Source: Nitrospiraceae bacterium
GTDB lineage: Bacteria > Nitrospirota > Nitrospiria > Nitrospirales > UBA2166
Reading direction: 5' to 3'
NCBI GenBank assembly: GCA_002726235.1
Contig: PBSN01000015.1
Span: forward strand, 1 to 26,195
Length of the DNA: 26,195 nucleotides
The notes beneath the pieces were generated by a model. The model searched no databases and had not been told where the DNA came from. It worked only from the letters and a program-made list of their open reading frames with translations. Each line of letters begins with the position of its first letter. Position 1 is the first letter of the stretch. Of this stretch, positions 10,035 through 20,742 are shown piece by piece. The translations under genes were made by a program, and so were the position numbers.

Positions 10035-11360
10035 TTAACTCCCAAGCCGTAGTGAGCGTGTTAATGCGTCAATCGTGAGGGCGACGCTTCCCCCATCTTG
10101 TTTTTCTTTCTCTATCTTTTTACACGCGTGCATGATCGTAGTGTGGTCTTTTCCCCCAAAGTGTCGCCCGATTTCCGGATACGACATCTCAGTCAGATCA
10201 CGACTCAAATACATGGCAAGCTGCCGCGGCAACACGAGTGCCTTGGTTCGCTTCTTTGACTTCATGTCTGCGACTTTAACGCCAAAACGGGCCGCTACTG
10301 CATTCTGCACTTCTGCAATGTCAATTCTCTGCTGGGATGCGCTGAGAAGATCTCGCAGAACTTCTCTCGTGAGACTCATTGTAATGGGTTCGCCGGTTAG
10401 AGACGAAAATGCTCCCAGGCGAATCAAGCAACTTTCCAGTTCTCGAATATTTGAGCGAACGCTTGACGCGATAAAGTGGGCAATCTCATCAACCAATTTC
10501 ATCCCTTCAGCGTCTGCTTTTTTCTGAAGAATTGCTACCCGAGTTTCTAGGTCTGGTGGTTGAATGTCGGCAATCAGCCCCCATGCAAACCGCGACTGAA
10601 GACGAGCCTCCATCCCTGGTATATCTTTCGGGAAGCAGTCGCTCGAAAGCACAATCTGCTTCTGGGCTTCATAGAGTGCATTGAACGTATGAAACAACTC
10701 CTCCTGCGTCCGCTCTTTCCCGGCAATGAATTGTATGTCATCAATTAATAGGGTTTCCGCGCTGCGGTATTTTCTTCTGAACTCTACCATCTTGTCATAT
10801 CGGATGGAGTGCACCACTTCGTTGGTGAATTGCTCCGATGACACATAGACGATCCTCATTCCGGGGTTCGCGTATAGCGTGGTCCCAATCGCATTGAGAA
10901 GGTGGGTTTTCCCCAGCCCTACTCCCCCGTAAATATAGAGAGGGTTGTAGGCTTTCGCCGGGTTTTCCGCGACCGCGAGACAGGCGGCGTGAGCAAACTG
11001 ATTACTCGCGCCTACAACAAATTTTCCAAATGTGTATTTTGAATTGAGTTGGTTTATACGATTGGGTTTTTTATCAGGAGGTCGCGGGGGCTCGGGCTTG
11101 GCATCTTCAGCAGCGTCATCGGGTTTCCACTGAATCTCAACGGCATCGCAGCCTAGCAATTCTCCGATAACGTCACTCACGACATCTCTATAGTGCTCCT
11201 CAAGCCACTGTCCGAAAAATCGGTTCGGGACTCGAAGCGTAATTTCCTTGCCATTCACAGAATCCAAGGAGACAGATCGAAACCACGTATCAAACGCTTG
11301 ATGCCCTATCCTCTCCTCTATGCTCCCTAGGCATTGCCCCCATATAGCAGAAACGTTCAT
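10035..11360 (-). CDS. dnaA: Chromosomal replication initiator DnaA
   Basis: DnaA is the AAA+ protein that binds DnaA boxes, melts oriC and loads the helicase. The 441 residues contain domain I (1-~80), a short proline-rich domain II linker (about 85-100), the Walker A motif GGVGLGKT (145-152), Walker B LLIDDIQF (204-211), the sensor/arginine region SRFAWGLIADIQPPDLETR, and domain IV with the DnaA signature GGKDHTTIMHACKKIE (402-417). The signature has IMHACKK in place of the common VLHAVRK, still typical of the family. It heads the operon and lies right next to the putative origin, the usual arrangement. AGGGTGAG sits just upstream of the ATG at 11360. Identity is certain; autoregulation through the nearby boxes is likely but inferred. 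Confidence 0.97.
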   Translation of the reverse strand: MNVSAIWGQCLGSIEERIGHQAFDTWFRSVSLDSVNGKEITLRVPNRFFGQWLEEHYRDVVSDVIGELLGCDAVEIQWKPDDAAEDAKPEPPRPPDKKPNRINQLNSKYTFGKFVVGASNQFAHAACLAVAENPAKAYNPLYIYGGVGLGKTHLLNAIGTTLYANPGMRIVYVSSEQFTNEVVHSIRYDKMVEFRRKYRSAETLLIDDIQFIAGKERTQEELFHTFNALYEAQKQIVLSSDCFPKDIPGMEARLQSRFAWGLIADIQPPDLETRVAILQKKADAEGMKLVDEIAHFIASSVRSNIRELESCLIRLGAFSSLTGEPITMSLTREVLRDLLSASQQRIDIAEVQNAVAARFGVKVADMKSKKRTKALVLPRQLAMYLSRDLTEMSYPEIGRHFGGKDHTTIMHACKKIEKEKQDGGSVALTIDALTRSLRLGS

Positions 11361-11436
11361 TTGCTCACCCTATCCATTGTTTGCACTCTTCCATAATACA
11401 TCTCTACACAATCTCTATATGTCTCTACTCACAGCT

Positions 11437-11456
11437 TTATCAACACATGTGCATAA
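11437..11456. other. Convergent pair of DnaA boxes
   Basis: TTATCAACA on the plus strand and TTATGCACA on the minus strand are separated by two bases. The second fits the TTATNCACA consensus exactly. The site lies ~80 bp upstream of the dnaA start, so it could serve both origin binding and dnaA autoregulation. Confidence 0.75.
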
Positions 11457-11604
11457 CCTGTTACTTTATACCAATCCATCTTCCCATCTTCAAGGACCTT
11501 CCATGAGCAACCACAGGCCACCCCCATAGAACCCCAATGCCAATGTACTTTCTTCATACGCATTCACACTCATTAATTTCATTGTTTTTCAACAACTTAT
11601 GAAA

Positions 11605-11622
11605 TTATGCACAGTGTCAACA
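11605..11622 (+). other. DnaA box plus abutting relaxed box next to the unwinding element
   Basis: TTATGCACA (11605-11613) is an exact consensus box. GTGTCAACA (11614-11622) follows directly and matches TTATCAACA at 7 of 9 positions. The second ends five bases before the triplet run, the position of the anchoring box in origins that use DnaA-trios. Confidence 0.7.
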
Positions 11623-11627
11623 GTCCT

Positions 11628-11651
11628 TACTATTACTACTATTACTATTAT
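11628..11651 (+). other. DnaA-trio run of the origin unwinding region
   Basis: Eight consecutive triplets of TAC or TAT are present. Read on the opposite strand 3' to 5' in the adjoining phase they give repeated GAT/AAT, the published DnaA-trio consensus. An AT-rich stretch with TTATATAGATAATAAAG follows (11652-11690) and is the likely first-melted DNA. Confidence 0.75.
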
Positions 11652-11704
11652 TCTTTCTTATATAGATAATAAAGAATAAGAAGAAGGTGCTACACCAAAC
11701 CTCC

Positions 11705-12025
11705 CTACCAGGTAACAATTTCATCAGTTTCAAAAATGAGATCCATAAGGCCATCATATCCTAATATTTGAGGCGAATGTGAGGATGCTGATGCATTAAA
11801 AGAGTGACTCTCAGGGGACAAAAGTGAAAATATCGGAGTGTCCGCCGAAACGATAGTTTCTGTGAGCTTTTGTGCAGTGACTACCGTGACTCGAAGGTCT
11901 GCTCTTTCGCTTTGCGAATGCAGGATTGCTTGTAGAGGAGGTTCAACCGTATTGGTGATTAGGTAGAGGATGCGCTTCACTGGAAAACCATAGTTAGAAA
12001 GCCATGGAGTATGAAGAGCGGGCAA
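11705..12025 (-). CDS. DsrH/TusB-like small sulfur-relay protein
   Basis: This small protein (106 residues from ATG 12025) is the last of three DsrE-superfamily-like genes in a row. It has the DsrH/TusB pattern: an N-terminal strand KRILYLITN, a central VTVVTAQKL strand, and the typical end GYDGLMDLIFETDEIVTW with a terminal Trp. DsrEFH/TusBCD proteins form a hexamer that passes sulfur from carrier to carrier, in tRNA 2-thiouridine synthesis or sulfur oxidation. The start is uncertain: ATG 12025 overlaps the previous gene by 32 bp, whereas GTG 11977 gives 90 residues, nearer the family's ~95, and starts right at the first strand. Neither has a good ribosome site. The stop lies 15 bp from the putative unwinding stretch of oriC. 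Family assignment is from fold pattern and gene order, not strong identity. Confidence 0.6.
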   Translation of the reverse strand: MPALHTPWLSNYGFPVKRILYLITNTVEPPLQAILHSQSERADLRVTVVTAQKLTETIVSADTPIFSLLSPESHSFNASASSHSPQILGYDGLMDLIFETDEIVTW

Positions 12026-12338
12026 TCATGTCAGATATTTGTGAGTGAGAGACAGGATGGATTGAAAAAGAAGGGTCAAAATCTATGTGAATGGAAGACT
12101 CCTTTTCAACATAAAAAGGTGTTCTCATGTCCTGAAAAATAGGGAGAAGTTTCTCTAGTGTATCATTATCAGACCCTTCGTTAAAGTCTTTTGAGAGAAG
12201 AGATAAGGCGTGATTTAGTAAGATAATGTCTGTCGATTGCCCGCTTGCAAGGAAAGAAAGTGCAATTCTGAGACCTTCAATCGAGCGATGTGTGGTAGAG
12301 GGATCGCTTCGAAGGAGAAATAAGATGGATGGTGTCAT
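11994..12338 (-). CDS. DsrF/TusC-like small sulfur-relay protein
   Basis: This is a 114-residue soluble protein. It begins with a hydrophobic strand (SILFLLRSDPSTTHRSIEG) followed by a helix (RIALSFLASGQ) and a second strand (TDIILLNHALSLL), the Rossmann-like opening of the DsrE/DsrF superfamily. The segment DMRTPFYVEKES is similar in place to the third strand of TusC. It sits between a better-recognised DsrE-like gene (21 bp upstream) and a DsrH-like gene (overlapping downstream), the standard E-F-H order. No conserved Cys is visible here, as is common for the F and H subunits. The ribosome site before ATG 12338 is weak. The likely role is as a subunit of a DsrEFH/TusBCD-type sulfur-transfer complex; this is inferred mainly from context and fold pattern. 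Confidence 0.6.
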   Translation of the reverse strand: MTPSILFLLRSDPSTTHRSIEGLRIALSFLASGQSTDIILLNHALSLLSKDFNEGSDNDTLEKLLPIFQDMRTPFYVEKESSIHIDFDPSFSIHPVSHSQISDMIARSSYSMAF

Positions 12339-12359
12339 GTGTGAAGCATTGGAGTTTAG

Positions 12360-12680
12360 CTAATTGAGAGCAAGGAAGCGATCCGTTCCACGAATAATAT
12401 TGGAGAGAATGACGAGTCCGCAAAAAACAATGTCTTTATCGGTGGATGAAGAGGGGATTTGTCGTTGCATGCAGCCATAGGCGCAGACAAATAGTTTCAC
12501 ATGAGGACAGCGAAACTCAGAGAATGATGGGGTAGAGAGGTGATGCACTCCATCATCAATGAGGTAAAGAGAAACGATGATATTTCTCTCTCCTGCGACT
12601 TGGAGGAGTCCAAGCGCAACAGCGGTATTTCTGTGAGCTGGGGGGGTTGAAAGGAGAATCCCGAGGGTCTTCTTCTGCAT
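12360..12680 (-). CDS. DsrE/TusD-like small sulfur-relay protein
   Basis: This 106-residue protein is of the DsrE/TusD type. It opens KKTLGILLSTPPAHRN (strand plus loop), has a strand-helix NIIVSLYLIDDGVHHL, then VKLFVCAYGCMQRQI, where Cys66 corresponds to the sulfur-binding Cys of TusD/DsrE, and ends ILSNIIRGTDRFLAL, matching the family ending 'DRVLxF'. It is first of the three DsrE/F/H-like genes. Reading is open to an ATG at 12716, but a TTGACA / TATGAT promoter overlaps that codon, so I prefer the ATG at 12680, which starts at the first strand as family members do. It probably transfers persulfide sulfur to a TusE/DsrC-type partner, which is not in this window. Confidence 0.7.
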   Translation of the reverse strand: MQKKTLGILLSTPPAHRNTAVALGLLQVAGERNIIVSLYLIDDGVHHLSTPSFSEFRCPHVKLFVCAYGCMQRQIPSSSTDKDIVFCGLVILSNIIRGTDRFLALN

Positions 12681-12711
12681 AAGAGGCTCAGAAAAAACGC
12701 AGAGCGATAGC

Positions 12712-12741
12712 ATCATATCCCTATGCCATTTAGCGTGTCAA
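12712..12741 (-). promoter_or_regulatory. Sigma-70 promoter of the DsrEFH-like genes
   Basis: On the minus strand TTGACA (12741-12736) and TATGAT (12717-12712) are separated by 18 bases. This is a near-consensus housekeeping promoter. The -10 covers the ATGATG at 12716-12711, so transcripts would start around 12704 and could not use that codon. This favours the downstream start at 12680. Confidence 0.6.
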
Positions 12742-12911
12742 CCAGGAAAACCCCCCTATTTTCTCTTGCTGAATACCCCAAGTTGAGATCGAAAAACCCT
12801 CTTTTTCCCTGCGGCTACAGATACAATTTTGGCTCATGCGTGAGGTAGAGGAAAAGGAAAGAAATAGGGAGGAAAGAAGTGTGGAGGTGAGCACGAAAAA
12901 GAGCCCCCAGC

Positions 12912-12941
12912 TTGACTTTGCGTCTTCCCATGCGGTAGATG
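12912..12941 (+). promoter_or_regulatory. Possible promoter of tRNA-Leu and the tig operon
   Basis: TTGACT (12912-12917) and TAGATG (12936-12941) are 18 bases apart and lie 27 bp before the mature tRNA 5' end. The -10 is imperfect. The interval 12742-12967 otherwise holds a ~65-base almost purely purine stretch (12837-12906) and no gene I can support. Confidence 0.4.
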
Positions 12942-12967
12942 TTCTAGTTGCCAGTCTTGAGCCTGAG

Positions 12968-13050
12968 GCGAGAGTGGCGGAATAGGCAGACGCGCAAGAT
13001 TTAGGATCTTGTGGGGAACCGTGAGGGTTCGAGTCCCTCCTCTCGCACCA
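12968..13050 (+). tRNA. tRNA-Leu (anticodon UAG)
   Basis: The acceptor GCGAGAG (12968-12974) pairs with CTCTCGC (13040-13046), followed by discriminator A and an encoded CCA (13048-13050). The anticodon arm CAAGA-TTTAGGA-TCTTG gives anticodon TAG, reading CUN leucine codons. The T-arm is GAGGGTTCGAGTCCCTC. The extra arm GTGGGGAACCGT is long, as expected for class II leucine tRNAs. It lies 38 bp ahead of the trigger factor start and may share its transcript. Confidence 0.95.
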
Positions 13051-13088
13051 GTTCTCACACGTCGTATTGGGATCCATTTGGAGAGTTG

Positions 13089-16891: not shown

Positions 16892-17002
16892 GCATCTGGT
16901 TATGACCCAACTATTGGCCAATATAGGCTATTGCGGGAATGTCATCATTTTTATTCACAGCGCTCTCAACAGACGATGCGGGAATTTCCACAGGAAAGTA
17001 CA

Positions 17003-17032
17003 TTGTTATCAACAGGAAAACAACAGTATATA
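17003..17032 (+). promoter_or_regulatory. Probable nrdJ promoter
   Basis: TTGTTA (17003-17008) and TATATA (17027-17032) are 18 bases apart. The -10 lies inside the first candidate NrdR box, which is the usual geometry for NrdR repression. A DnaA-box-like TTATCAACA (17006-17014), identical to a box in oriC, overlaps the -35. The remaining DNA between rpsU and here holds only the decayed gene at 16605-16891 and a 12-bp palindrome GCACTGCAGTGC (16612-16623). Confidence 0.45.
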
Positions 17033-17067: not shown

Positions 17068-17151
17068 TGCTTGCTTTATTCTACGTGGATCAGGTTTGCA
17101 GGGTTTTTGCCGTAATTCCGAGAAGTCAATCCGTGGTTGTGGAGGGTGTAT

Positions 17152-20100
17152 ATGAGGATCCAAAGACGATTTACGCAAGCTGGAGCTAGCCCCTACAAAG
17201 ACATTCAGTTTATCAAGCGCTTCTCAGAGATCCGGAATCCTGATGGGTCCGTTGTCTTTCACATGGATCAAGTAGATGTACCCGAAGACTGGTCTCAGCT
17301 CGCAGTTGATATCCTCGCGCAAAAATATTTTCGCAAAGCAGGCGTTTCCCAGGCGCACACGAATGGGACCTTGGAGAAGGAATCAGATGGTAAACCTGTG
17401 TTGGGTGGTGAACATGATGCTCGCCAGGTGTTCCATAGGCTTGCCGGGTGTTGGACCCAGTGGGGAAAGGACGGAGGGTACTTTCAGGCCGACACGGATG
17501 CCAATGCTTTTTATGACGAAGTCTGTTACATGCTAGCGACTCAGATGGCTGCACCAAATTCGCCGCAGTGGTTTAACACCGGCCTCAACTATGCCTATGG
17601 CCTCGTTGGCCCGTCTCAGGGGCATTTTTATGTAGACCCGAAAAGTGGCAAGGTTCAAAAGACGGAGAACGCCTATGAGCGTCCTCAAGTACACGCCTGC
17701 TTTATCCAGTCAATCAACGATGATTTGGTCAATGACGGCGGGATCATGGATTTATGGGTTCGGGAAGCTCGCCTGTTTAAGTACGGATCGGGTACGGGAA
17801 CCAATTTCTCAAATCTTCGAGGGAACGGAGAGCAGTTATCGGGAGGCGGGAAGTCTTCTGGACTCATGTCGTTCCTAAAGATCGGCGATCGTGCCGCCGG
17901 GGCCATCAAATCTGGTGGGACCACTCGACGTGCCGCGAAGATGGTGTGCTTGGATCTTGACCATCCTGATATCGAGGAGTTTATCGACTGGAAGGTCGTC
18001 GAAGAACAAAAAGTTGCAGCAATGGTCACCGGGTCAAAGATTTGCGCGCGCATGCTCAACGAAGTGTTGCAGGCGTGCTATGTCAAAAATGGGAATGGCC
18101 ATCCACAAGTTAAAACGGATGTGAAGGAAAATCAGGTTCTCAGGCACGCAGTGCAAGCGGCACGGCGAGAGAATGTCCCTGATGCTTACATTCAGCGCAT
18201 GTTCGTCTATGCGCGAGAAGGGTTTACCCATTTTGTGTTTCATGAATATGACACGAACTGGGACAGCAACGCGTATCAGACCGTCGCTGGGCAAAATTCA
18301 AATAACAGTATTCGCGTGCCCAATGAATTTTTCCATGAGCTTGAAAAAGATGGCGATTGGACGTTGCGACAGCGGACCGATGGGACGGTGGCAAAAACCG
18401 TCAAGGCGCGAGAATTGTGGGACCGCATTTCATGGGCTGCGTGGATTTGTGCAGATCCAGGAATCCAATATGACACAACGATTAATGACTGGCATACCTG
18501 TCCAGAAGACGGGCGTATCAACGCCTCGAATCCTTGTTCAGAATATATGTTTCTTGATGATACCGCATGTAATCTTGCATCGCTAAATCTTGGAAAATTT
18601 GTAAAAGCCGATGGATCGTTTGATATCGATAGCTTCAAGCATGCTGTTCGGATTTGGACCATTGTGCTTGAGATTAGTGTGTTCATGGCGTCGTTTCCGA
18701 GCCGGGCCATTGCCGAGAAGAGCTATGCGTTTCGCACCCTTGGGTTGGGATATGCGAATCTCGGATCGATGTTGATGCGCCAAGGCATTTCGTATGATTC
18801 AGTTGAGTCGCTTGCGATTTGCGGAGGAATTACCGCGATTCTTACAGGTGAATCGTATGCTACATCAGCGGAAATAGCTGCGGAGCTTGGGCCCTTTGCG
18901 GGATTTGCAAAGAACAGAGAGCATATGTTGCGAGTAATTCGTAACCATCGTCATGCGGCCTATGATGGTGCACCCGAAGAATACGAGGGTCTCGGTATTG
19001 TGCCGAAAGGTCTTGATGTTGAACATTGTCCTCCAGAGCTGGTAACAGCCGCACGTGACGCCTGGGATCGTGCGTTGGAATTGGGCAAGGCTCATGGGTA
19101 CCGTAATGCGCAGACAACGTGTATCGCACCGACTGGAACGATAGGTTTGGTGATGGACTGTGACACCACTGGTATCGAGCCGGATTTCGCGCTGGTGAAG
19201 TTTAAGAAACTCGCGGGAGGGGGATACTTTAAAATAATCAATCAAAGCCTGCCCCTAGCATTGGCACGCCTCGGGTACTCGGAGGTCGAAATCCAAGATA
19301 TCGTCACCTATGCTATCGGACATGGGACCCTCGAGGATGCTCCGGAAATCAATCATGAGACACTGACAGAGAAAGGGTTTGACAGTACCGCTATTGATCG
19401 TCTTGAAGCTTTGCTGGGACAGGCATTTGACATTTCCTTTGCGCTGAATCCTTTAACGCTTGGTGAGGAGTTTTGCCGAGAACACCTTGGGATCACTAGC
19501 GAACAAATTGGAAAGCCACGCTTCAATTTATTGAAAGCGCTCGGATTCACCCAAGCTCAGATCGATGCGGCAAATGACTATTGCAGCGGCACCATGACTG
19601 TCGAAGGCGCACCTCATCTTAAGCTAGAACACCTATCGGTCTTTGACTGTGCGAACAGATGTGGACGTATAGGGAAGCGGTTTCTTGCGGTGGCGGCCCA
19701 TATTCAGGTGATGGCAGCCGCGCAACCATTTATCAGTGGGGCGATAAGCAAAACGATTAATTTACCCGCTGAGGCTACGGTTGAGGATGTCATGGCATCA
19801 TATATCTTGGCATGGCGGAGCATGCTTAAAGCGGTTGCGCTCTATCGGGACGGGTCGAAGCTCAGCCAGCCGCTGAGTGCGTCAATTAATGTGGATGAAC
19901 TGGAAGAGTTCGGTGCCGACCTTAAGGCAACGCCGGTTGCCGCATCTGTGGTGGAAGATCTCAGTCACCGAATCTTGGTGAGGTATTTGGCGAAACGACG
20001 GCCATTGCCCGGACGAAGATCTGGCTACACCCAGAAAGCGATCATCGGAGGACACAAGTTGTATCTTAGAACCGGTGAGTACGAGGATGGCACTATAGGT

Positions 20101-20742
20101 GAAATATTCCTCGATATGCATAAAGAAGGCGCTGCGTTTCGGAGCCTAATGAATTGTTTTGCCATTGCAGTGTCACTCGGCCTTCAGCACGGTGTGCCGC
20201 TGGAGCGATTTGTCGACGCCTTCGTGTTCACTCGTTTTGAACCAAGTGGACCCGTAAGAATGAACGACCATATCAAAATGAGCACTTCGCTAATCGATTA
20301 TATTTTCCGAGAGCTGGCAATCACCTATCTCGGACGGGAAGATCTCGCGCAAGTGGTTGAAGACGACCTCCGCGTGGATTCCGTAAAGAAAGATCCGGAA
20401 TGTCTCGATGAAGTCTTGCCAGATAAGCATGAACTTGCTGCTGCGTCTATTAGCACACATCTCTTTCCAGCACGGAGTCGGGTTGATCATGGGAACGGCA
20501 ATGGTCATGAGAACGGCAATGGTCATGAGAACGGCAATGGTCATGAGAACGGCAATGGTGCTGTCCGTACAATGCTGAAAGGTGCGCAGAAGATGGTGAC
20601 GGCTACCGCCGAAATACAAGAAGCACGGATGAAAGGGTACGAAGGTGATCCCTGTTCTAACTGCGGGCTTTTTAAGATGGTCAGAACCGGAACTTGTCTG
20701 AGATGTGACGATTGTCACGAAGTTAGCGCAGGGTGTTCGTAG
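17152..20742 (+). CDS. nrdJ: Adenosylcobalamin-dependent ribonucleoside-diphosphate reductase (class II)
   Basis: This 1196-residue class II ribonucleotide reductase makes deoxyribonucleotides using adenosylcobalamin to generate the thiyl radical, so it needs no oxygen. Active-site features are visible: Cys183 in HACFIQSI, the NPCSE motif at 460-464 carrying the radical Cys462 and Glu464, and APTGTIG near 658, matching the ATGTIS-like phosphate loop. The last ~130 residues before the tail include a TSCPD-type domain ([20 protein letters not shown]). Residues 1113-1136 are a Gly/Asn/His repeat. The C-terminus has a Cys-rich cluster (CSNC...CLRCDDC, 1168-1188) typical of long NrdJ and probably used for re-reduction. 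I start at ATG 17152, six bases after GGAGG; a TTG at 17137 would include that site. NrdR-like boxes stand upstream, and a shared hairpin lies ~200 bp downstream. Confidence 0.96.
20488..20559 (+). repeat. Four in-frame 18-bp tandem repeats in nrdJ
   Basis: The unit CATGAGAACGGCAATGGT is present four times head to tail; the first copy has GGG for GAG, the other three are identical. It encodes HGNGNG once and HENGNG three times. It forms a flexible linker just before the C-terminal Cys-rich tail. Being exact at DNA level, it is probably recent and variable in copy number. Confidence 0.9.

Follow-up and report, generated by a model that had tools for sequence, protein, structure and literature searches.

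Does the intergenic DNA upstream of dnaA in an uncultured family of Nitrospirota, order Nitrospirales, hold a replication origin opened in the manner of Bacillus subtilis, and what do the relatives of this genome disclose about the bases that DnaA would read there? The window analysed was one entire contig (26,195 bp) of a 1.87-Mb, 27-contig genome, ~91% complete, for which the original prediction had proposed an oriC with a B. subtilis-like DnaA-trio module.

Location of the origin

The dnaA gene (10035–11360, minus strand; 441 aa) was identified by TIGR00362 (E = 4e-166) and by the Pfam domains Bac_DnaA, Bac_DnaA_C and DnaA_N. It adjoins dnaN, gyrB and gyrA in a leftward-running series, the genes on the other side (tRNA-Leu, tig, clpP and clpX) run rightward, and a 344-bp intergenic region (11361–11704) separates dnaA from small ORFs starting at 11705. 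GC skew was negative to the left of the putative module and positive to the right, with the change of sign at the module itself, and the cumulative minimum fell at 11761, ~110 bp past the triplets described below and not elsewhere in the window. With dnaA adjoining, a DnaA-box cluster present and the skew minimum at this point, the oriC call was upheld: the module is positioned in oriC, upstream of dnaA.

Equivalent minima were recorded in relatives. In two metagenome-assembled genomes (MAGs) of the same genus, Nitrospiraceae bacterium UBA2166 (L002) and Nitrospirales bacterium UWMA-0026 (L003), which are the nearest named relatives by DnaA (85–86% identity), the minimum lay 380–390 bp upstream of where dnaA starts. 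Skew was also sampled in two single-contig genomes of the order (noisily in the larger genome), and the cumulative minima within 40 kb around dnaA fell at 1909433 (dnaA start 1908639; ~0.8 kb upstream) and 2802874 (dnaA start 2802559; ~0.3 kb upstream).

Anatomy of the module

All of the parts originally listed were found in the order proposed. A relaxed DnaA box, TTTTCAACA, with two mismatches (11586–11594, plus strand) is followed by a strict box, TTATGCACA, with one mismatch to TTATCCACA (11605–11613, plus strand), which points toward the triplets and is abutted by a second relaxed box, GTGTCAACA (11614–11622, plus strand). After a 4-nt spacer, GTCC (11623–11626, plus strand), come eight putative DnaA-trios (11627–11650, minus strand; top strand TTA CTA TTA CTA CTA TTA CTA TTA), and thereafter a flank of 75% AT (11651–11690), the distal part of the predicted unwinding element. 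The run had been noted as TAC/TAT triplets, a reading that is one base late: the run itself stands, and its trio register, which is conserved across the order, is CTA/TTA, or 3'-GAT/AAT-5' on the other strand. In that register the trio strand reads 3'-AAT GAT AAT GAT GAT AAT GAT AAT-5', the first trio directly following GTCC.

The published search rule for the basal unwinding system (BUS) seeks a DnaA box with no more than two mismatches 0–16 bp before the trios, the commonest form comprising tandem boxes of which the upstream one is nearer to consensus (PMC8287927). Here TTATGCACA, with its single mismatch, ends 13 bp before the first trio, and is the nearer to consensus of two tandem plus-strand boxes, TTATGCACA then GTGTCAACA. 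Against a minimum of three 3'-NAN-5' triplets, the window has eight, with central A in 8/8. GAT, the commonest trio above all beside the box, accounts for 4/8, and the box-proximal trio is AAT rather than the preferred GAT.

The likeness to the BUS of B. subtilis oriC (DnaA-boxes #6/#7 plus DnaA-trios; PMC6669920, PMC8287927, PMC10721633) extends to tandem boxes of like orientation, the upstream one nearer consensus, a short spacer, repeated 3'-[G/A]A(N)-5' trios, an AT-rich flank and the pocket residues of DnaA. Unlike the BUS, which lies in incC downstream of dnaA, the window module lies upstream of dnaA and is directed away from it, and it has eight trios, half of them AAT. Clostridial oriC modules (e.g. 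L036 and L018) share an identical geometry of box, abutting box, 4 nt and CTA/TTA run, but are likewise located downstream of dnaA. That the module occurs in a non-Firmicute had been put forward as notable, a claim that falls away: BUS/trio modules have been predicted in 85% of 2070 species by a search that assumes central A (PMC8287927), so that one in Nitrospirota is ordinary. What the window adds is a well-anchored origin for an uncultured Nitrospirota family.

A further DnaA-box cluster proximal to dnaA (11425–11456) has the arrangement >,>,<, and consists of CTACTCACA (>), TTATCAACA (11437–11445, plus strand) and TTATGCACA (11448–11456, minus strand); the same arrangement recurs directly upstream of dnaA in the order's other families. 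A plus-strand stretch at 11512–11553 (CACAG..ACCCCCA.AG...ACCA), situated between the two clusters, was conserved in 3/3 same-genus genomes and perhaps represents weak sites for DnaA or a portion of the dnaA promoter.

The triplet run proved non-random on dinucleotide shuffling: the longest run reached 5 in 5000 shuffles of the 344-bp intergenic region and 4 in 200 shuffles of the whole window, as against the 8 observed. Of 20,000 region shuffles, 0.025% produced a box with three or more triplets within 16 nt, and a scan of the window's 26 kb disclosed no other run of at least four such triplets.

Conservation within the genus

The spacing of box, 9 nt, 4 nt and triplets was identical in the window, L002 and L003. 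The strict box is represented in the two relatives by TTATCCACA and TTATACACA, the abutting relaxed box by GCATAAACA and GTATCAACA, and the spacer by ACCT and CCCC, its length of 4 nt being kept. Their triplets are more degenerate (CTT CTC CTA CCA CTA CTA TTT TTT in L002; CTA CTC CTT CTA CTA CTT CTT ATT in L003), and the perfect regularity is therefore peculiar to the window. Comparison with close relatives, proposed at the outset as a check, accordingly supported the module, its boxes, spacing and register being kept despite the more degenerate triplets: on these alignments, the genus conserves the register and, for the most part, positions one and two of each triplet.

These observations bear directly on the notion of a neutral triplet microsatellite, with the run arisen by slippage beside dnaA. 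It is indeed short, regular and the sole such run in the window; but slippage would alter length and leave the units identical, whereas in the relatives register and box spacing persist even though the sequence differs, and the comparative data make this origin of the run highly improbable.

Survey of the order

Upstream DNA was collected from order, class and phylum relatives, mostly draft genomes, and examined with a home-made module finder that places some runs in the wrong register. A scored run was detected in 124/147 usable order genomes, 200–345 bp upstream of dnaA and directed away from it, and none by this finder in the remaining ~16%. The best box ended 3–4 or 12–13 nt before the run in 111/130 counted cases. 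Orientation, box phasing and location upstream of dnaA are thus common to the window and to the other Nitrospirales origins (families f2–f4). Unlike the window, in which central A alone occurs, f2–f4 often have trios with central C (top-strand CGA/CGG) or with a different third base (top-strand CTC). As a check on the method, clostridial loci yielded the expected module downstream of dnaA. Certain further classes of Nitrospirota also had clearly recognisable runs (e.g. L214, L237 and L256), in numbers too few to count.

A strict scan for CTA/TTA-type triplets returned almost nothing beyond the window run, and could be read as an absence of conservation; that reading was rejected, as registers read by box distance show conservation. 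Also rejected as trios were dnaA-proximal CTG TTA ATA matches in family f4, which belong to the conserved >,>,< box cluster, CTGTTAATAA being an inverted DnaA box (TTATTAACA). In several genomes of genus g6 (G038, G023 and others; loci L094 and L098), the dnaA match contains one TAG, possibly a stop codon near the C-terminus within the aligned range.

Middle-base substitutions

Runs were selected by a score on their first base, with a mild penalty for C at the second and third, a procedure that introduces no bias between G and A at the middle position. In the 124 order genomes, top-strand middle bases were T 718, G 213, C 40 and A 21, corresponding on the DnaA-contacted strand to A 72%, C 21%, G 4% and T 2%; in the regions as a whole G is the rarest base (13%) and A stands at 30%. 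Shuffled sequences subjected to the same selection gave T 523, A 567, C 246 and G 280. A second, box-anchored selection using the first base alone gave T 737, G 233, C 63 and A 23, with central G (top strand) in 14 of the 19 genera counted, genera being assigned by hand from the table of relatives.

In order to lessen the effect of shared ancestry, 46 disjoint closest pairs were compared, each picked by similarity of the same upstream DNA and not by a species tree. Top-strand middle-base changes were G<->T 23, C<->T 5 and C<->G 2, with none to or from A; on the trio strand, A<->C therefore made up 23/30, versus a 10% share in the flanks (1882 changes, including C<->T 548, A<->G 406 and G<->T 190), and the binomial probability of the G<->T excess against that share was ~1e-17. 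First-base changes were C<->T in 23/25, and the third base varied more freely. The resultant trio-strand pattern is 3'-[G/A][A/C]N-5'.

We consider it probable, from these comparisons, that trio evolution in Nitrospirales obeys a base-specific rule, 3'-[purine][amino base]N-5', in which cytosine is a natural and frequent alternative central base. If true, the rule would back the amino-group capture model with evidence from evolution, and the motif would extend beyond the published 'NAN' search pattern. This order-wide pattern, which lies outside the window with its eight canonical trios, is the new part of the work: in the part of the literature that was searched, no description of natural central-C trios was found, nor any paper treating Nitrospirales trios.

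An alternative origin for the central-C triplets, as a separate distal element or as the outcome of GC-biased drift in GC-richer genomes, is rather unlikely. In its favour, they are concentrated distally: in family f3, central C is rare in trios 1–2 and common in 3 and 5–8. Drift toward GC, however, should favour T<->C (548/1882 in the flanks) over T<->G (190), whereas the middle base shows 5 versus 23; moreover, the central-C triplets share the register and first-base rule and occur in 14/19 genera counted, and the DnaA pocket is unchanged.

The same substitutions weigh upon the suggestion that the region is indeed oriC but the triplets a mere easily melted AT-rich pyrimidine tract, opened by E. 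coli-like bending and loop-back with no base-by-base reading. The AT-richest 50-mers of the window start at 11629–11633, so that the run sits in its AT-richest 50 bp; loop-back opening of the IHF type is known from other systems, and nitrospirae are reported to possess IHF (PMC10316083). Yet low melting energy leaves unexplained a fixed 3-nt register at a fixed box distance, as it does first-base changes of C<->T in 23/25 cases, middle-base T<->G in 23/30 and a freer third base, and T to G changes raise GC content and would hinder melting. This suggestion is accordingly regarded as improbable, though less remote than slippage.

The DnaA pocket

In the B. subtilis complex, the central adenine touches Asn187 through its amino group; central cytosine separates strands about as well as adenine, guanine and thymine slow separation, and in vivo cytosine in trios 1–3 supported growth better than the other two substitutions (PMC10721633). 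An amino group is common to both bases, which is why cytosine can stand in for the central adenine, and it was suggested that other DnaA proteins might accept such sequences (PMC10721633). The window genome's DnaA keeps the base-capturing residues equivalent to B. subtilis E183, N187, R202, K222, E223 and E228, with V at the I190 position and Asp in place of N196, which makes the third-base contact in B. subtilis. The first six are invariant in the DnaA proteins of the order that were examined; the pocket would therefore be the same throughout, with the variation in the DNA staying inside its tolerance.

Nitrospirales origins thus appear to use the central A/C freedom found in B. subtilis, and the comparison serves as a natural test of single-stranded DNA recognition by DnaA. 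By inference from structure to sequence, the order-wide substitution pattern lends natural support to the amino-group readout deduced from Bacillus mutants. On that showing, a search rule demanding central A would count too few trios in genomes of this kind.

Proposed mechanism and helicase loading

Taken together, anatomy, position, non-randomness, conserved spacing and register, the DnaA pocket and the substitution pattern make it very likely that 11361–11704 is oriC and 11605–11690 its DnaA-trio/basal unwinding module, the best explanation of the data. Points against it are the AAT trio beside the box, the count of GAT at no more than 4/8, the Asp at the N196 position, the ~16% of usable order genomes that yielded no scored run, and the case of T. 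maritima, which shows that an annotated trio can be supportive only, the binding being done by a different TAG block (PMC10316083). Binding, opening and helicase loading are deduced from these sequence features. DnaA would bind the strict box and next the abutting relaxed box, and in this way an ATP-DnaA oligomer would be guided onto the triplets' bottom strand, where each protomer interface would take two bases of one trio (3'-[G/A], then the central A); stretching of the captured strand would then open the AT-rich flank.

Helicase would be loaded afterwards, probably with DciA rather than via the Bacillus DnaD/DnaB/DnaI route. Unlike B. subtilis, the window genome has DciA (E = 8e-23) and, at ~91% completeness, gave no match to the DnaB_2 (DnaD/DnaB) domain, for which the B. 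subtilis control was positive; helicase loading should therefore differ from that of Bacillus. The suggestion that the same strand-opening mechanism operates in both organisms is consequently supported, by the skew, module conservation and DnaA residues, for the predicted opening but not for the whole initiation pathway.

Other features of the window

Three small minus-strand ORFs (11705–12716) adjoin oriC; that at 11994–12338 matches DsrE/DsrF (E = 2e-6) and that at 12360–12716 does so weakly, and they are possibly a DsrEFH/TusBCD-like set transcribed toward the origin. The neighbouring minus-strand ORF at 12730–13077, without a family match, overlaps the tRNA-Leu gene (12968–13050, plus strand) and is probably spurious. 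A second DnaA-box-like cluster (16951–17014) lies upstream of nrdJ (17137–20742, plus strand), with TTATTCACA at 16951, TTATCAACA at 17006 and CTCTCAACA- and TTTCCACA-like sites in between, and is partly kept in L002; the arrangement hints at control of ribonucleotide reductase by DnaA. Palindromes resembling NrdR boxes follow this cluster.
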